A DNA stretch of 64,000 bases from Candidatus Gastranaerophilales bacterium (GTDB lineage Bacteria; Cyanobacteriota; Vampirovibrionia; Gastranaerophilales; Gastranaerophilaceae), in the NCBI GenBank assembly GCA_944325875.1, contig CALVBU010000001.1, positions 248,001-312,000 of the forward strand, given 5' to 3'. Shown in pieces: positions 5,676 through 60,522 of this stretch. Every line of letters starts with the position of its first letter. The first letter of the stretch is position 1. The notes below the pieces were generated by a model. The model was not told where the DNA came from. It was given only the letters and a program-made list of their open reading frames with translations, and did no database searches. Made by a program: the position numbers and the translations under genes.

Positions 5676-6362
5676 ATGAATAAAAAAGCTTTTACATTGG
5701 CAGAAGTACTTATTACATTGGGGATAATAGGAATAGTAGCTGCAATAACTCTTCCTGCATTAGTGGGCAAATACAGGAGCAAAGTAGCTGTTGCTCAATT
5801 AAAAAAAATGTATTCAATTATTTCCCAAGCAATGTTAAGAGCCATGCCTGATGGTGATTATGGGAATTTAACATTTGCAGCTGGTGGAGGTCTTGATTCT
5901 GTAAATGATTTCTTTTATAACTACCTAAAACCTCAATTAAAAATCACCCAAATATGTACAGGGCAATCTAACTGTGCAACTTTTAAAAAATTAAATAAAA
6001 AGAATCAAACAATAGGTTGTGGATCTGGAATTATTACTTTTAAAACACCTGATGGGTACCAATTTTGTATTGATACTTGGTCCAACAGGGATAGTGATAC
6101 TGTAGAAAATACATTTGGAGTTGATATGAATGGAGTAACAGGAAGTATAGTAACCGTATTTGCAGATATAAACGGAGAACAAAAACCAAATATTCTAGGC
6201 AAAGATGTTTTTGTATTTGTATTAAATAAAAAAGGACTTGTACCAGCAGGATATAGTAAAACAGATACAGAAATTGAAAACGAATGTAAAAACACAGGAT
6301 ACTATTGTTTCACAAAAATAATCAGAAATAACTGGGAAATAAATCAAGAAGACTTATTTTAA
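5676..6362 (+). CDS. Type IV prepilin-like protein
   Basis: A 228-residue secreted fibre-type protein. The N-terminus MNKKAFTLAEVLITLGIIGI is a class III prepilin signal: a short Lys-rich leader, predicted cleavage before Phe6, Glu at mature position 5, then a hydrophobic helix to about residue 30. Alanine rather than glycine precedes the cleavage site. The C-terminal part is soluble and contains paired cysteines (CTGQSNC, CKNTGYYC) that may form disulfides. The start is set by an ideal AAGGAGG site. A matching prepilin peptidase is not in the window. It is one of three such genes here (others at 46082-46750 and 58722-59553) and stands alone between a promoter and a terminator. Confidence 0.9.
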   Translation: MNKKAFTLAEVLITLGIIGIVAAITLPALVGKYRSKVAVAQLKKMYSIISQAMLRAMPDGDYGNLTFAAGGGLDSVNDFFYNYLKPQLKITQICTGQSNCATFKKLNKKNQTIGCGSGIITFKTPDGYQFCIDTWSNRDSDTVENTFGVDMNGVTGSIVTVFADINGEQKPNILGKDVFVFVLNKKGLVPAGYSKTDTEIENECKNTGYYCFTKIIRNNWEINQEDLF

Positions 6363-46081: not shown

Positions 46082-46750
46082 CTAAATTTTAAACGGATAA
46101 TCATCCGTAAATTCCCAATTAGAAAGTTCTAAGATTCGAACACCACATTTCTTAGCTTGAATTAGGGCTTCTCTATCATTCCGAGAAGGATTATCACAGA
46201 GTGTTCCCCATTTTTTTAATTTATGATCAAAATAATACGATGAACTCCAGGGACAAATTACAAAAGCAAAAGTATCATAATCTCTTTTATTTGGTTTATT
46301 GGGGCCATTGACATCTAAATTAAAATCTATACAACCAGCACTTTTCGTATATGCAATACTACCATCAGCAAAATATATTGCTACCATCGTTTCACCTGTA
46401 TAATCAGGTATGACCGATTGTTCAATACGCGTATATTTGATATAAGGTGCAATATATTTCATTATAAACTCATAAGTATATTTAGGTCCCTTAACTGGAT
46501 CATAAACGCCATTGCCATTTTCATCGGCATGAGCACCATTAGTATGAGTCCAATACTTTGCATCACCATTAACGGCTTCTGAAAGCTGAATAGCCTGAGA
46601 CATCATACTATTAAACTTTTTTAATCTTGCAGTATATTCTTTCTTTTTATAATGCCCAACTAATACAGGCAACGTCATTGCAGCCACTATTCCAATTATT
46701 CCTAAGGTTATTAGTACTTCTGCTAATGTAAAAGCATTGTTCTTTTTCAT
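46082..46750 (-). CDS. Type IV prepilin-like protein
   Basis: 222 residues. Class III signal MKKNNAFTLAEVLITLGIIG with predicted cleavage before Phe7 and Glu at mature position 5; hydrophobic helix to about residue 32. The C-terminal domain has four cysteines (near residues 140, 164, 182 and 200) and an Asp/Asn-rich segment (HADENGNGVYDPVKG, about 74) that could bind calcium. GGAGG stands five bases before the ATG. Its upstream region is unusual: promoter, small ORF, 11-G tract and hairpin between 46989 and 46800 on the same strand. Confidence 0.9.
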   Translation of the reverse strand: MKKNNAFTLAEVLITLGIIGIVAAMTLPVLVGHYKKKEYTARLKKFNSMMSQAIQLSEAVNGDAKYWTHTNGAHADENGNGVYDPVKGPKYTYEFIMKYIAPYIKYTRIEQSVIPDYTGETMVAIYFADGSIAYTKSAGCIDFNLDVNGPNKPNKRDYDTFAFVICPWSSSYYFDHKLKKWGTLCDNPSRNDREALIQAKKCGVRILELSNWEFTDDYPFKI

Positions 46751-46801
46751 CTATCCCTCCGTTTTATATTTTATTTTCAAGTTAGCTTAAAACTTTGCAT
46801 C

Positions 46802-46827
46802 AAAAACCACCGTGTCTATTGGCACGG
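46802..46827 (-). terminator. Weak intrinsic terminator upstream of the prepilin gene
   Basis: Reverse strand: CCGTG pairs with CACGG around an 8-nt loop, then TGG and five T. The stem is short. Confidence 0.4.
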
Positions 46828-46893
46828 CTAAATTTTAACTTTTTATTTCGGAGGTCTAAGTCGAAAATGCTTGACTCAACTGTTAGTTGGCAG

Positions 46894-46904
46894 CCCCCCC
46901 CCCC
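46894..46904 (-). repeat. 11-nt homopolymer tract (G on the reverse strand)
   Basis: Eleven consecutive C on the forward strand, in a region otherwise AT-rich. It lies within the small ORF beginning at 46933, ten codons from its ATG, matching the position of the G tract at 58756. Confidence 0.95.
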
Positions 46905-46990
46905 GAAATTATCATTATAAGTAAGTCTTGCATTATTACCTCTTTTCTGATTTATTTATTATTCTAACAAATTTTTACATTTATTTCAAG

Positions 46991-57251: not shown

Positions 57252-58580
57252 CTACTTTAACCTGTCAGGAATTACATCTTTTGCAACTAAATCATCAAGA
57301 GTCTCTCTATTTACTATAATATCAGATTGAGAATTATTTACAAGTACCATTTGAGGTTTTTGTACTCTATTATAATTAGATGCCATAGAATAATTATAAG
57401 CACCTGTATTATAAACACATAGAATATCACCTTCTTCAATTTGAGGAAGAGAAATATCCTTAATCAAAATATCACCGCTTTCACAAAATCTGCCTGCAAT
57501 GGTAACTGTTTCTATATTTTCGTCTAAAGGTTTATTTGCGATTTGAGCAGAATATTCAGCCTGATACATAGATGGTCTAGGATTATCTGACATCCCACCA
57601 TCTACCGCAACGTATTTTTTACCTTTAGGCACTTGCTTAGAACTTCCTAGAGTATAAAGAGTTACACCAGATGTAGAAATTATACTTCTACCAGGCTCGA
57701 TAAATAATGTAGGCGGTTCTATACCATATTTTTCAACACTTGCATTTAAACTTTTTATAATTACATCGGCAATTTCAAAAGCGGAAGGTGGAAGATCTTT
57801 TTCTGTATATTTAACGCCTAAACCACCACCAATATTAATTTCATCGAGTTTTAAACCGAATTTTTCATCAAGTCTAGATAATTCTTTTACTAAAATTTCA
57901 ATTTCATCATGGTAGACTTGAGTTTCAAAAATTTGAGAACCAATATGCGCGTGAAGCCCGTGCAAATTAAGATTTTTATATTCATCAAGAATAAGACTTA
58001 CAGCTTCATCAACTTGGGTCAAATCAAACCCGAATTTTGAATCAAGATGACCTGTTTGAATATACTCATGGGTATGACATTCTATCCCCGGAGTTATTCT
58101 AAGCAAAATATTAGCAATTTTATTTTCACTTTTAGCAATTTCATTTAACAATGAAAGCTCTAAGAAATTATCTACAGAAAATCTTCCAACACCTAGATCT
58201 AATGCAAGCTTAATTTCATCAACTGATTTATTGTTTCCGTTAAACAAAACCTTACTCATATCAACACCGGCTTTATATACAGTGTAAATTTCACCACCTG
58301 ATACAACATCAAAACCAAAGCCTTCTGAAGATAAAATTGCAGAAGTAGCCATAGTACAAAGAGCTTTAGATGCATACATCATATTAACTTTTTCATAAGA
58401 AGAAAAAGCCTGTTTATAATTTTGACAAATACCTCTTAAAGTAGCTTCATCCAAAACATACAAAGGAGTCGAATACTTCTGAGCTAACTCAACTAAATCA
58501 CAACCACCGATTTCAAGATTTTGATTATCATTAATTTCCGTTGTAATTGGCTTTAAAGATTGATTAATGCTCTCTTGCAT
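57252..58580 (-). CDS. lysA: Diaminopimelate decarboxylase
   Basis: 442 residues, alanine-racemase fold. PLP lysine Lys72 in MMYASKALCTMA; HAHIGSQI (about 213), EINIGGGLGV (about 246), LFIEPGRSI (about 293), and catalytic Cys in AGRFCESGDI (about 364). Converts meso-DAP to lysine. AAAGGAG ribosome site. The cdaA gene follows after one base, coupling lysine/cell-wall precursor metabolism and c-di-AMP synthesis in one operon. Confidence 0.95.
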   Translation of the reverse strand: MQESINQSLKPITTEINDNQNLEIGGCDLVELAQKYSTPLYVLDEATLRGICQNYKQAFSSYEKVNMMYASKALCTMATSAILSSEGFGFDVVSGGEIYTVYKAGVDMSKVLFNGNNKSVDEIKLALDLGVGRFSVDNFLELSLLNEIAKSENKIANILLRITPGIECHTHEYIQTGHLDSKFGFDLTQVDEAVSLILDEYKNLNLHGLHAHIGSQIFETQVYHDEIEILVKELSRLDEKFGLKLDEINIGGGLGVKYTEKDLPPSAFEIADVIIKSLNASVEKYGIEPPTLFIEPGRSIISTSGVTLYTLGSSKQVPKGKKYVAVDGGMSDNPRPSMYQAEYSAQIANKPLDENIETVTIAGRFCESGDILIKDISLPQIEEGDILCVYNTGAYNYSMASNYNRVQKPQMVLVNNSQSDIIVNRETLDDLVAKDVIPDRLK

Positions 58581-58673: not shown

Positions 58674-58702
58674 TTGAAATATTAACGAAAATAATTTATA
58701 CT
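58674..58702 (+). promoter_or_regulatory. Promoter of the phase-variable prepilin gene
   Basis: TTGAAA, a 17-base spacer, TATACT. The expected start near 58709 leaves a very short leader that contains the AGGAGG site. Confidence 0.65.
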
Positions 58703-58721
58703 ATATAAAAAGGAGGAATCT

Positions 58722-59553
58722 ATGAAAAACACAATTATAGCTTCAATCTTAAAGAGGGGGGGGGGGCTTTCACTCTGTAAATAAAGGACCTGGACGGGAT
58801 TGTTTAAAATTTAAAGAAAAGCTCAAGGCACAAAACCCTTTTTCCATTACGGAAGCTTTTACTCTGGCAGAAGTACTGATTACTCTTGGCATTATCGGAA
58901 TTATAGCAGCATTAACCTTACCACAAGTTATAGTTAATTATGAAAAAAAAGCAACCGAAGTTCGCCTAAGAAAAGATTACAGCACATTAGCTAATGCTTT
59001 GAAAATGGCAGAAGCCGAACATGGACCTATTGAGACCTGGGCTGGAGTAAATGGCGAAAATTTTAAAGAATATTTCAAAAAAATGGAACCATATATTCAA
59101 TTTGCAACTGAACCCTGCTTTGAAGAAGAAAAATGTTTACCTAAACAACATGGTGCGTATATGACAGGAATTTATTTCAGATTAAAAGACGGCACTTATG
59201 GACTATTTGCAGATAATAATGTACCAAACCCCGTCAATCCTAAATTTTACTTCACACTTTTAACTAGCGAAAAACATGCAATATACGGACGAACTTTTTT
59301 TAAGTTTTCGATAATGAATTTAAAAAATCTAAAGATAAAAGCAAACACTGGTGCAGCAGGGACCCCTATATGGTACTGGGACACACCGGCAGAATGTAAA
59401 AACAGTAATGCAGCTTGGAACGAATATTATTGTTTTATGAAATTTGCACAAGATGGCTTTACTTTCAAAGACAATTACAACTTTGAAAAATTAAATAACA
59501 TTAACAATGTATATAAGTCAATGTTAAAAACAAAACCTAGAGGGTGGTTTTAA
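58722..59553 (+). CDS. Type IV prepilin-like protein, frame interrupted at an 11-G tract
   Basis: An ideal AGGAGG site precedes ATG 58722, which opens MKNTIIASILKRGGG, but as sequenced this frame stops at 58782-58784. The prepilin signal AFTLAEVLITLGIIGIIAAL lies in the +1 frame from 58856, which continues to the stop at 59553 and has no ATG, GTG or TTG of its own between the TAA at 58750 and the signal. With 10 or 13 G instead of 11, one protein of about 276 residues would result, with an unusually long leader of about 45 residues (FHSVNKGPGRDCLKFKEK...). The mature region has cysteines in EPCFEEEKC and pairs near the C-terminus. Best read as a phase-variable gene in the off state; a sequencing error in the tract is the alternative. 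Confidence 0.7.
58756..58766 (+). repeat. 11-nt poly-G tract
   Basis: Eleven G's 34 bases after the prepilin ATG. Long G runs of this kind are prone to slipped-strand length changes. The tract separates the start codon from the prepilin reading frame. Confidence 0.95.
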
Positions 59554-59559
59554 TTAATT

Positions 59560-60522
59560 TTAAAACTTCAATAATATTCCAATACATAAAAGAAGACAGA
59601 ACCATATCATAAGATTTCTTGCTTGAAACAAAATAAAATAAAAAGATTCCGTACCCTCTTGCTTAACTGCATCCCAGTTATCAAGAGGGTAATTCCACCA
59701 TCTTATTTCAGGCACTATATCTTGATTACTATTATATCTTTTCATTTGATTATAAATATAACAAGCAAAAGGTATAGTTAAAAATGATAAAAATACCCAA
59801 TAGTTAGAAATTTTAATTCCAAATAAAGCCGCAAAAATATAACCTAATGAAACAAATACCCCAAATAAAATTAAAGCTTTATTCTTATCATTAATTCTGC
59901 AGCATAAAGTCTTTTTATGAGAAATTTTATCGCAATCAAAGTCAAGCAGAGTATGAATATATAAAAAAGCCACCGTAAACATAACAACCGCAAGAGATAA
60001 AATTAAAACATCTAAGGAAAAGTTTCCTTTCATAACATACCAAACACCTTCAAACATCAATGGTCCGAAAAGCAAGCCAATAACAACTTCACTTAATCCT
60101 ACAAGAGAAAATTTAGCATAAGTCAAAGTAAGAATACCACCAATCAGCATCAACCAGAATACGCCAAACCCACTCCTAAAAAACAGTATAACACCTATTA
60201 AAATTGCGACAAAACAGAATACAGCTATCATTTTAGCTAAATCTTTAAGAGTTATACTACCATCGCGTATAAAACAGCATTTAGTCGCAACAGCACTATT
60301 CATAAGTTTTTCATCTTTTGAAAGAATTCCATAATCTATATAATCATCCGCCATATTACCTGCAAGATGAGTAAAAGAAACTCCAATAAGTGCTAAAATT
60401 CCATTTATAATATCACCGCCATTTAACAACCCAAATACAAAAACTATCAACCAAGAAAGTATAGTAATAGGTAGGGCAAAAGCTCTGGAACATTGAAGCC
60501 AGAACGTTATTTTTTTTATCAT
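59560..60522 (-). CDS. UbiA-family prenyltransferase
   Basis: 320 residues, eight to nine membrane helices. First Asp-rich motif NMADDYIDYG (about 56) and second motif LLDFDCDKISHKK (about 192), both needed for Mg-prenyl diphosphate binding. Members prenylate aromatic acceptors (quinones, hemes, chlorophylls) or others; acceptor unknown. The gene overlaps the 72-residue gene upstream by 4 bases, so it is the last gene of the nanE operon. Confidence 0.85.
   Translation of the reverse strand: MIKKITFWLQCSRAFALPITILSWLIVFVFGLLNGGDIINGILALIGVSFTHLAGNMADDYIDYGILSKDEKLMNSAVATKCCFIRDGSITLKDLAKMIAVFCFVAILIGVILFFRSGFGVFWLMLIGGILTLTYAKFSLVGLSEVVIGLLFGPLMFEGVWYVMKGNFSLDVLILSLAVVMFTVAFLYIHTLLDFDCDKISHKKTLCCRINDKNKALILFGVFVSLGYIFAALFGIKISNYWVFLSFLTIPFACYIYNQMKRYNSNQDIVPEIRWWNYPLDNWDAVKQEGTESFYFILFQARNLMIWFCLLLCIGILLKF

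Follow-up and report, generated by a model that had tools for sequence, protein, structure and literature searches.

The window, meaning the whole stretch of 64,000 nucleotides of the Candidatus Gastranaerophilales genome that was analyzed, carries at 58722-59553 a prepilin-type gene with a run of 11 G shortly after its start codon. The gene is solitary, both flanking genes lying on the other strand. Its features and its neighbors are as follows:

58674-58702, plus strand: promoter-like site TTGAAA-17-TATACT (a consensus match only; the scan is not above chance)
58710-58716, plus strand: Shine-Dalgarno sequence AAGGAGG
ATG at 58722 to stop TAA at 58782-58784, plus strand: open reading frame as stored with 11 G, MKNTIIASILKRGGGLSLCK
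58736-58744, plus strand: conserved nucleotide box TATAGCTTC within the leader, retained in the leaders of the fused architecture (class II, below) in eight species of the genus
58756-58766, plus strand: G11 tract, the candidate switch; start and prepilin frame are joined at 10 or 13 G
58768-59553, plus strand: prepilin-like coding frame without a start codon, 261 aa, with a match to TIGR02532 and a GspG-like N-terminus
58855-58920, plus strand: prepilin cleavage/methylation motif, A^FTLAEVLITLGIIGIIAALTLP
57252-58580, strand opposite to the prepilin gene: lysA-like gene (named by eye)
59560-60522, strand opposite to the prepilin gene: prenyltransferase-like gene (named by eye)

With the 11 G stored in the assembly, the frame that begins at ATG 58722 ends after 20 codons, before the prepilin motif is reached, while the prepilin frame (..SITEA^FTLAEVLITLGIIG..) is open from 58768 to its stop at 59551-59553. 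No ATG, GTG or TTG occurs in the prepilin frame upstream of TTG 58999, the region ahead of the FTLAEV motif included, which bears out the claim of the first-pass annotation that this frame is out of register with the ATG and has no start of its own. The AGGAGG, the ATG and the 11 G's at 58756-58766 had also been placed accurately at every coordinate that could be checked, and the expectation that 10 or 13 G's would restore one frame was confirmed by translation, which gives a single 276-residue protein. Read from its sequence, the gene as stored would be OFF, and one G less would join its only good start to the intact prepilin frame. The “strong promoter” proposed for it stood only in part: TTGAAA-17-TATACT is present, but its strength is a matter of consensus, and a promoter scan gave 2 matches against 4.4 expected. 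The window contains two tracts of at least eight G (8 nested matches against 0.10 expected from dinucleotide shuffles), which is beyond chance. Like a contingency locus, the gene has a run of at least eight G near its start, with tract length setting the frame. Both frames are intact, as in a reversible switch, the 261-residue frame being open and constraint in this gene itself being weak.

The 261-residue frame matches TIGR02532 at 16.5 bits against a cut-off of 16.3 (20.8 bits in the genome scan) and pseudopilin GspG weakly, and it scores under the cut-off of Pfam N_methyl. A hydrophobic stretch follows its class III signal [G/A]^F-T-x-A-E, and the genome encodes a prepilin peptidase (PF01478, 38.5 bits) and 115 prepilin N-termini. 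An AlphaFold2 model of the protein, computed without an alignment, was too poor for use (mean pLDDT of 39).

The first-pass description of the locus was incomplete, as the tract is one of about 48 in the genome, distributed over two architectures. The 2.2-Mb genome contains 48 runs of at least eight G, nearly all of which sit at prepilin genes; 36 of the 48 are exactly 11 G long, and tracts of fewer than eight G are almost absent. Such assembled lengths represent consensus states. Most genomes of the genus, and several further genera of its family, have dozens of tracts of at least nine G per genome, as against zero to six in members of the order outside this family, so that dozens of tracts per genome occur only in the family of the finding. 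MutS is retained in these genomes. No copies of either leader class were found on viral contigs, a permissive Rfam search with the leaders returned no family, and a literature search returned no paper on G-tract switches in Gastranaerophilales. A few tracts lie at genes of other kinds. A stealth-type glycosyltransferase (IVYLWVDGNDPE, named by eye) has a start-proximal G tract of 11 G and is OFF in this genome (L022, G000 C3:111732), and has 12 G and is in frame in another (L267, G011 C5). A glycosyltransferase-like gene, also named by eye, has a class II leader with one surplus G in both species (L079, G000 C14; L259, G011 C1), and a gene that does not encode a pilin and whose start resembles a signal peptide (ILKRLLCASLLGLTILGANAAE; L252, G011 C1:98000-102000) contains a G17 tract.

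In the class II architecture the tract is part of the coding frame: it follows the conserved box TATAGCTTYAAAA about 11 codons past the ATG, and the pilin lacks a separate start. This genome has the gene at 58722-59553 and five or six others of this kind, and there are many in relatives. Each tract with a Shine-Dalgarno sequence and a start was translated in three frames, at lengths of n-1, n and n+1 bases. Among 113 fused prepilins without their own Met, taken from 13 named genomes and further relatives (genomes and regions being picked non-randomly from tract lists, with ORFs of at least 100 aa required), 75 were one G too long, 20 were one too short, and 18 were in frame (two-sided binomial against 1/3: p=1e-12 for one G less needed and p=5e-5 for in frame). 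Because paralogs are not independent, the proteins were clustered at 40% identity, using the part beyond the N-terminal helix; about 29 of the resulting 48 clusters need one G less (p=1e-4) and about five are in frame (p=2e-4), a result that did not change when the genome richest in copies was removed. The out-of-frame state of the fused genes is strongly non-random, and across the assembled sequences of the family a position one base off is the majority state of fused prepilin genes. In the genus, this frame relation is kept because head and tract lengths compensate: a head of 33 bases occurs with 12 G, one of 34 with 11 G, and one of 35 with 10 G.

Further observations concern class II leaders and the poly-G prepilins of one other genus. 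The box TATAGCTTYAAAA is conserved at the nucleotide level inside the leader coding sequence of all class II leaders (58736-58744 in the window), with no synonymous change in ATA GCT, and its ATAG forms a stop in the ON frame upstream of the tract. The poly-G prepilins of the genus of G018 (L272-L279) are all one G short, not long, and most have their own Met ahead of the pilin. One class II leader of genome G003 (L294, C14:15951) has a broken tract (GGGGGGAGGG), is still one base out of frame, and is apparently locked OFF.

An ortholog of the prepilin gene in a second species, G012, has a 36-base head followed by G10 and is also OFF, one more G being needed, and its frame is intact over the aligned 330 bases. 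The two outcomes named in advance as fatal to a switch, a fixed length of 10 and a fixed 11 with a dead downstream frame, both fail, since this ortholog keeps the tract and an intact frame and is OFF with different numbers. The ON frame of this pair has a dN/dS of 0.67, indicating weak constraint. In two other fused ortholog pairs, both one base too long in both species, the ON-frame dN/dS is 0.31 and 0.23 and that of the other frames is 0.8-1.5; by this measure, the ON frame of these two pairs is under purifying selection. Tracts paired between this genome and G012 are 11/11 in 17 of 23 cases, some pairs being paralogs and most of these being class I. Among relatives, tract length shows some one-base differences and some long outliers, and most paralogs or matched orthologs have the same length. 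A near-identical paralog pair in G021 differs by one G, one copy being ON and the other OFF, and tracts of 15-17 G exist; therefore, the length of the DNA does change. In two other genera, represented by G023 and part of G018, poly-C (C8-C11) takes the same place in prepilin genes, about ten codons past the start:

G023, poly-C prepilins: L045, L137, L206, L216, L287-L290
G018, poly-C prepilins: L218, L223, L273, L274, L280

Seven of 14 poly-C prepilins are one C too long, five are in frame, and two are one C short. As poly-C tracts occupy the same place, the homopolymer appears to work on either strand. This argues against a common principle that depends on G in the transcript, be it GGG decoding or pairing of the tract, and favors polymerase slippage on the homopolymer.

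The second architecture (class I) accounts for about 38 elements in this genome, one of them in the window at 46894-46904. Its parts follow in the order promoter, Shine-Dalgarno sequence, a short ORF of the form MQKxxIxxISGGG.., G11, an invariant CCTCCG, a terminator-like hairpin, the Shine-Dalgarno sequence CGGAGG and the ATG of the prepilin, which starts about 145 bases past the tract. The element in the window is listed below, together with a third prepilin-type gene that serves as a contrast:

46931-46933, minus strand: start codon of the leader ORF
46894-46904, minus strand: G11 tract of the class I leader
46849-46854, minus strand: invariant CCTCCG (anti-Shine-Dalgarno)
46809-46827, minus strand: terminator-like hairpin CCGTGCCAATAGACACGG, followed by T-rich DNA
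46756-46761, minus strand: Shine-Dalgarno sequence CGGAGG of the pilin, complementary to CCTCCG
46082-46750, minus strand: prepilin-type gene of 222 aa that follows the class I leader and starts at an ATG of its own
5676-6362, plus strand: third prepilin-type gene in the window, without a G tract

Partition-function folding of 36 class I leaders pairs CCUCCG with the pilin Shine-Dalgarno sequence at a mean probability of 0.78, leaving the latter free at 0.16, and pairs CCUCCG with the tract at 0.16. Changing CCUCC in silico raised access to the pilin Shine-Dalgarno sequence from 0.15 to 0.65, and shuffled leaders gave 0.54. With a simulated ribosome placed over CCUCC the site was free at 0.69, and with one at the 0-frame stop at 0.08-0.09; the outcome for the -1 frame is less clear because the value at its stop was 0.13 or 0.53, depending on the extent of leader masked. 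The reading frame is open through CCTCC in the +1 frame in all 38 distinct leaders from two species, in the 0 frame in none and in the -1 frame in three, these leaders being paralogs that are worth little more than one observation. The class I tract is predicted to set expression by frame too, with +1 as the ON frame. No frame of the class I leaders had a clear synonymous excess among distinct changes, and conservation of the -1 frame stop was no higher than expected from base composition at that site. Two other identities were considered for these elements and dropped: that of a mobile repeat, as nearly all lie about 145 bases before a prepilin start, and that of a double-glycine secreted peptide, as the leader stop changes with the frame and these elements serve as leaders of genes. 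By sequence and folding prediction, class I has the arrangement of an attenuator, a leader ORF with an anti-Shine-Dalgarno sequence that sequesters the downstream Shine-Dalgarno sequence. In the translational attenuation of erm and cat genes, translation of the leader ORF likewise decides whether the downstream Shine-Dalgarno sequence is sequestered, there through drug-stalled ribosomes; in class I, the decision would be made by frame after a homopolymer.

The contingency loci of Campylobacter, Neisseria and Helicobacter have poly-G or poly-C tracts of about 8-13 bases in genes for surface structures, and share with the genes described here homopolymer frame switching and many loci per genome. 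The present set differs in being made up mostly of a single gene family, in an OFF state skewed toward exactly one surplus base, and in the presence of MutS (the mismatch repair status of the compared species being general knowledge). The closest precedent is the pair of sortase-dependent pilus genes bbr_0113 and bbr_1889 of Bifidobacterium breve UCC2003, which have a G10-G11 tract early in the gene, are out of frame in the reference, show mixtures of lengths measured in DNA, and turn ON mostly by loss of one base (PMC9187656). Both cases involve a gut commensal with a pilin-gene tract that is stored out of frame and for which one base less is ON. In B. breve, there are two sortase-pilus loci in an actinobacterium, whereas here about 48 tracts lie at type IV prepilin-like genes, the tract may be poly-G or poly-C, the offset is conserved family-wide, there is a second architecture with a leader ORF and an anti-Shine-Dalgarno sequence, and the system is known from assembled sequences. 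A G repeat in a leader also governs a downstream gene in Helicobacter pylori, where a variable repeat in the tlpB mRNA leader acts through the trans small RNA RepG (PMC8295292), while the tract described here is part of a translated leader ORF, with a predicted anti-Shine-Dalgarno sequence in cis.

We consider it probable that the G tracts are length-dependent frame switches near the start of prepilin-like genes, OFF by default, with slippage turning them ON in a minority of cells. Replication slippage would supply the ON length in these cells, and few of the many surface pilins would be expressed at any one time. In class I, the tract would act one step earlier than in the fused genes: only a ribosome in the +1 frame would traverse the anti-Shine-Dalgarno CCUCCG and uncover the pilin ribosome site, as folding predicts. 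Default-OFF replication slippage explains the locus, the gene classes, the presence of tracts on either strand and the length outliers, and the occurrence of tracts in surface-glycan genes also supports a switch. The narrow lengths and the conserved offset go beyond the requirements of this model; they would be explained if selection disfavored the ON state in most cells, or if expression came from polymerase slippage at a fixed length. Under fast random phase variation, mixed frames and lengths would be expected, against which stand the 36 of 48 tracts of exactly 11 G, the 17 of 23 matched pairs that are 11/11, and the retention of MutS. Of the putative on/off adhesin switched by tract slippage that the first-pass annotation had proposed, the length-dependent frame switch on a prepilin gene is supported, but simple random phase variation does not predict an out-of-frame state biased to 75 of 113 genes one G long and 18 of 113 in frame. 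A broader proposal, which we offer tentatively and with some doubt, is a family-wide expression system: dozens of surface pilins would be encoded out of frame by a single base and would yield full-length protein only by slippage on the G/C run, the leader form being a frame-sorting attenuator in which one of three frames passes the anti-Shine-Dalgarno sequence and unlocks the pilin. The literature search found no precedent for a frame-sorting attenuator.

Alternatively, the slippage could be programmed into expression: the DNA length would stay out of frame, and each gene would yield a small, constant fraction of full-length protein as RNA polymerase slips on the G/C run (or the ribosome shifts by +1). 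We regard this as unlikely, although narrow tract lengths, a one-base offset conserved across paralogs and species, head and tract compensation, purifying selection on an ON frame that is stored OFF, and the near absence of tracts below eight, a length near that of the RNA-DNA hybrid in RNA polymerase, would all be consistent with it. The one-G difference between paralogs and the outliers of 15-17 G indicate that DNA length moves, 18 of 113 genes are in frame, and one genus has an offset of the other sign, all of which count against it; a shift by the ribosome only, on GGG codons, leaves the poly-C versions unexplained. It is improbable that the tract works mainly as RNA, with pairing to CCUCCG in class I or to a C-rich small RNA tuning expression and the frame being secondary. 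While RNAalifold predicts pairing between the tract and CCUCCG in every class I leader and RepG on tlpB of H. pylori offers a precedent (PMC8295292), partition-function folding prefers the pairing of CCUCCG with the pilin Shine-Dalgarno sequence (0.78) to that with the tract (0.16), poly-C versions exist, and frame must matter in the fused genes because they have no separate start.

That the gene at 58722-59553 is a dead or permanently OFF relic is very improbable: the 261 residues of its frame are uninterrupted here, as are the aligned 330 bases in G012, other ortholog pairs have dN/dS values of 0.23-0.31, and dozens of intact genes in many species are in the same state, even though the gene is stored out of frame, its own ortholog pair is weakly constrained (dN/dS of 0.67), and the related G003 leader with a broken tract is apparently locked OFF. 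Homopolymer G runs are difficult to sequence, and in B. breve the reference length was unlike the measured mixture, but an assembly or sequencing error in tract length is extremely improbable here, as the same offset recurs in many independent assemblies, across preferred lengths from 9 to 13, with either sign and on either strand.

In conclusion, homopolymer frame switching of pilus genes is already known, and what differs in the putative system of this family is its scale, the conserved offset and the leader architecture. Automatic annotation will label such genes as truncated or start-less. Gastranaerophilales are common, uncultured gut bacteria; with about 50 frame switches acting on a single family of surface proteins, they would have a repertoire, antigenic or adhesive, comparable in size to those known in pathogens. 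Given the conserved offset of one base, the question is whether selection keeps these surface genes OFF, one slip away from expression, or whether slippage is itself the means of expression.
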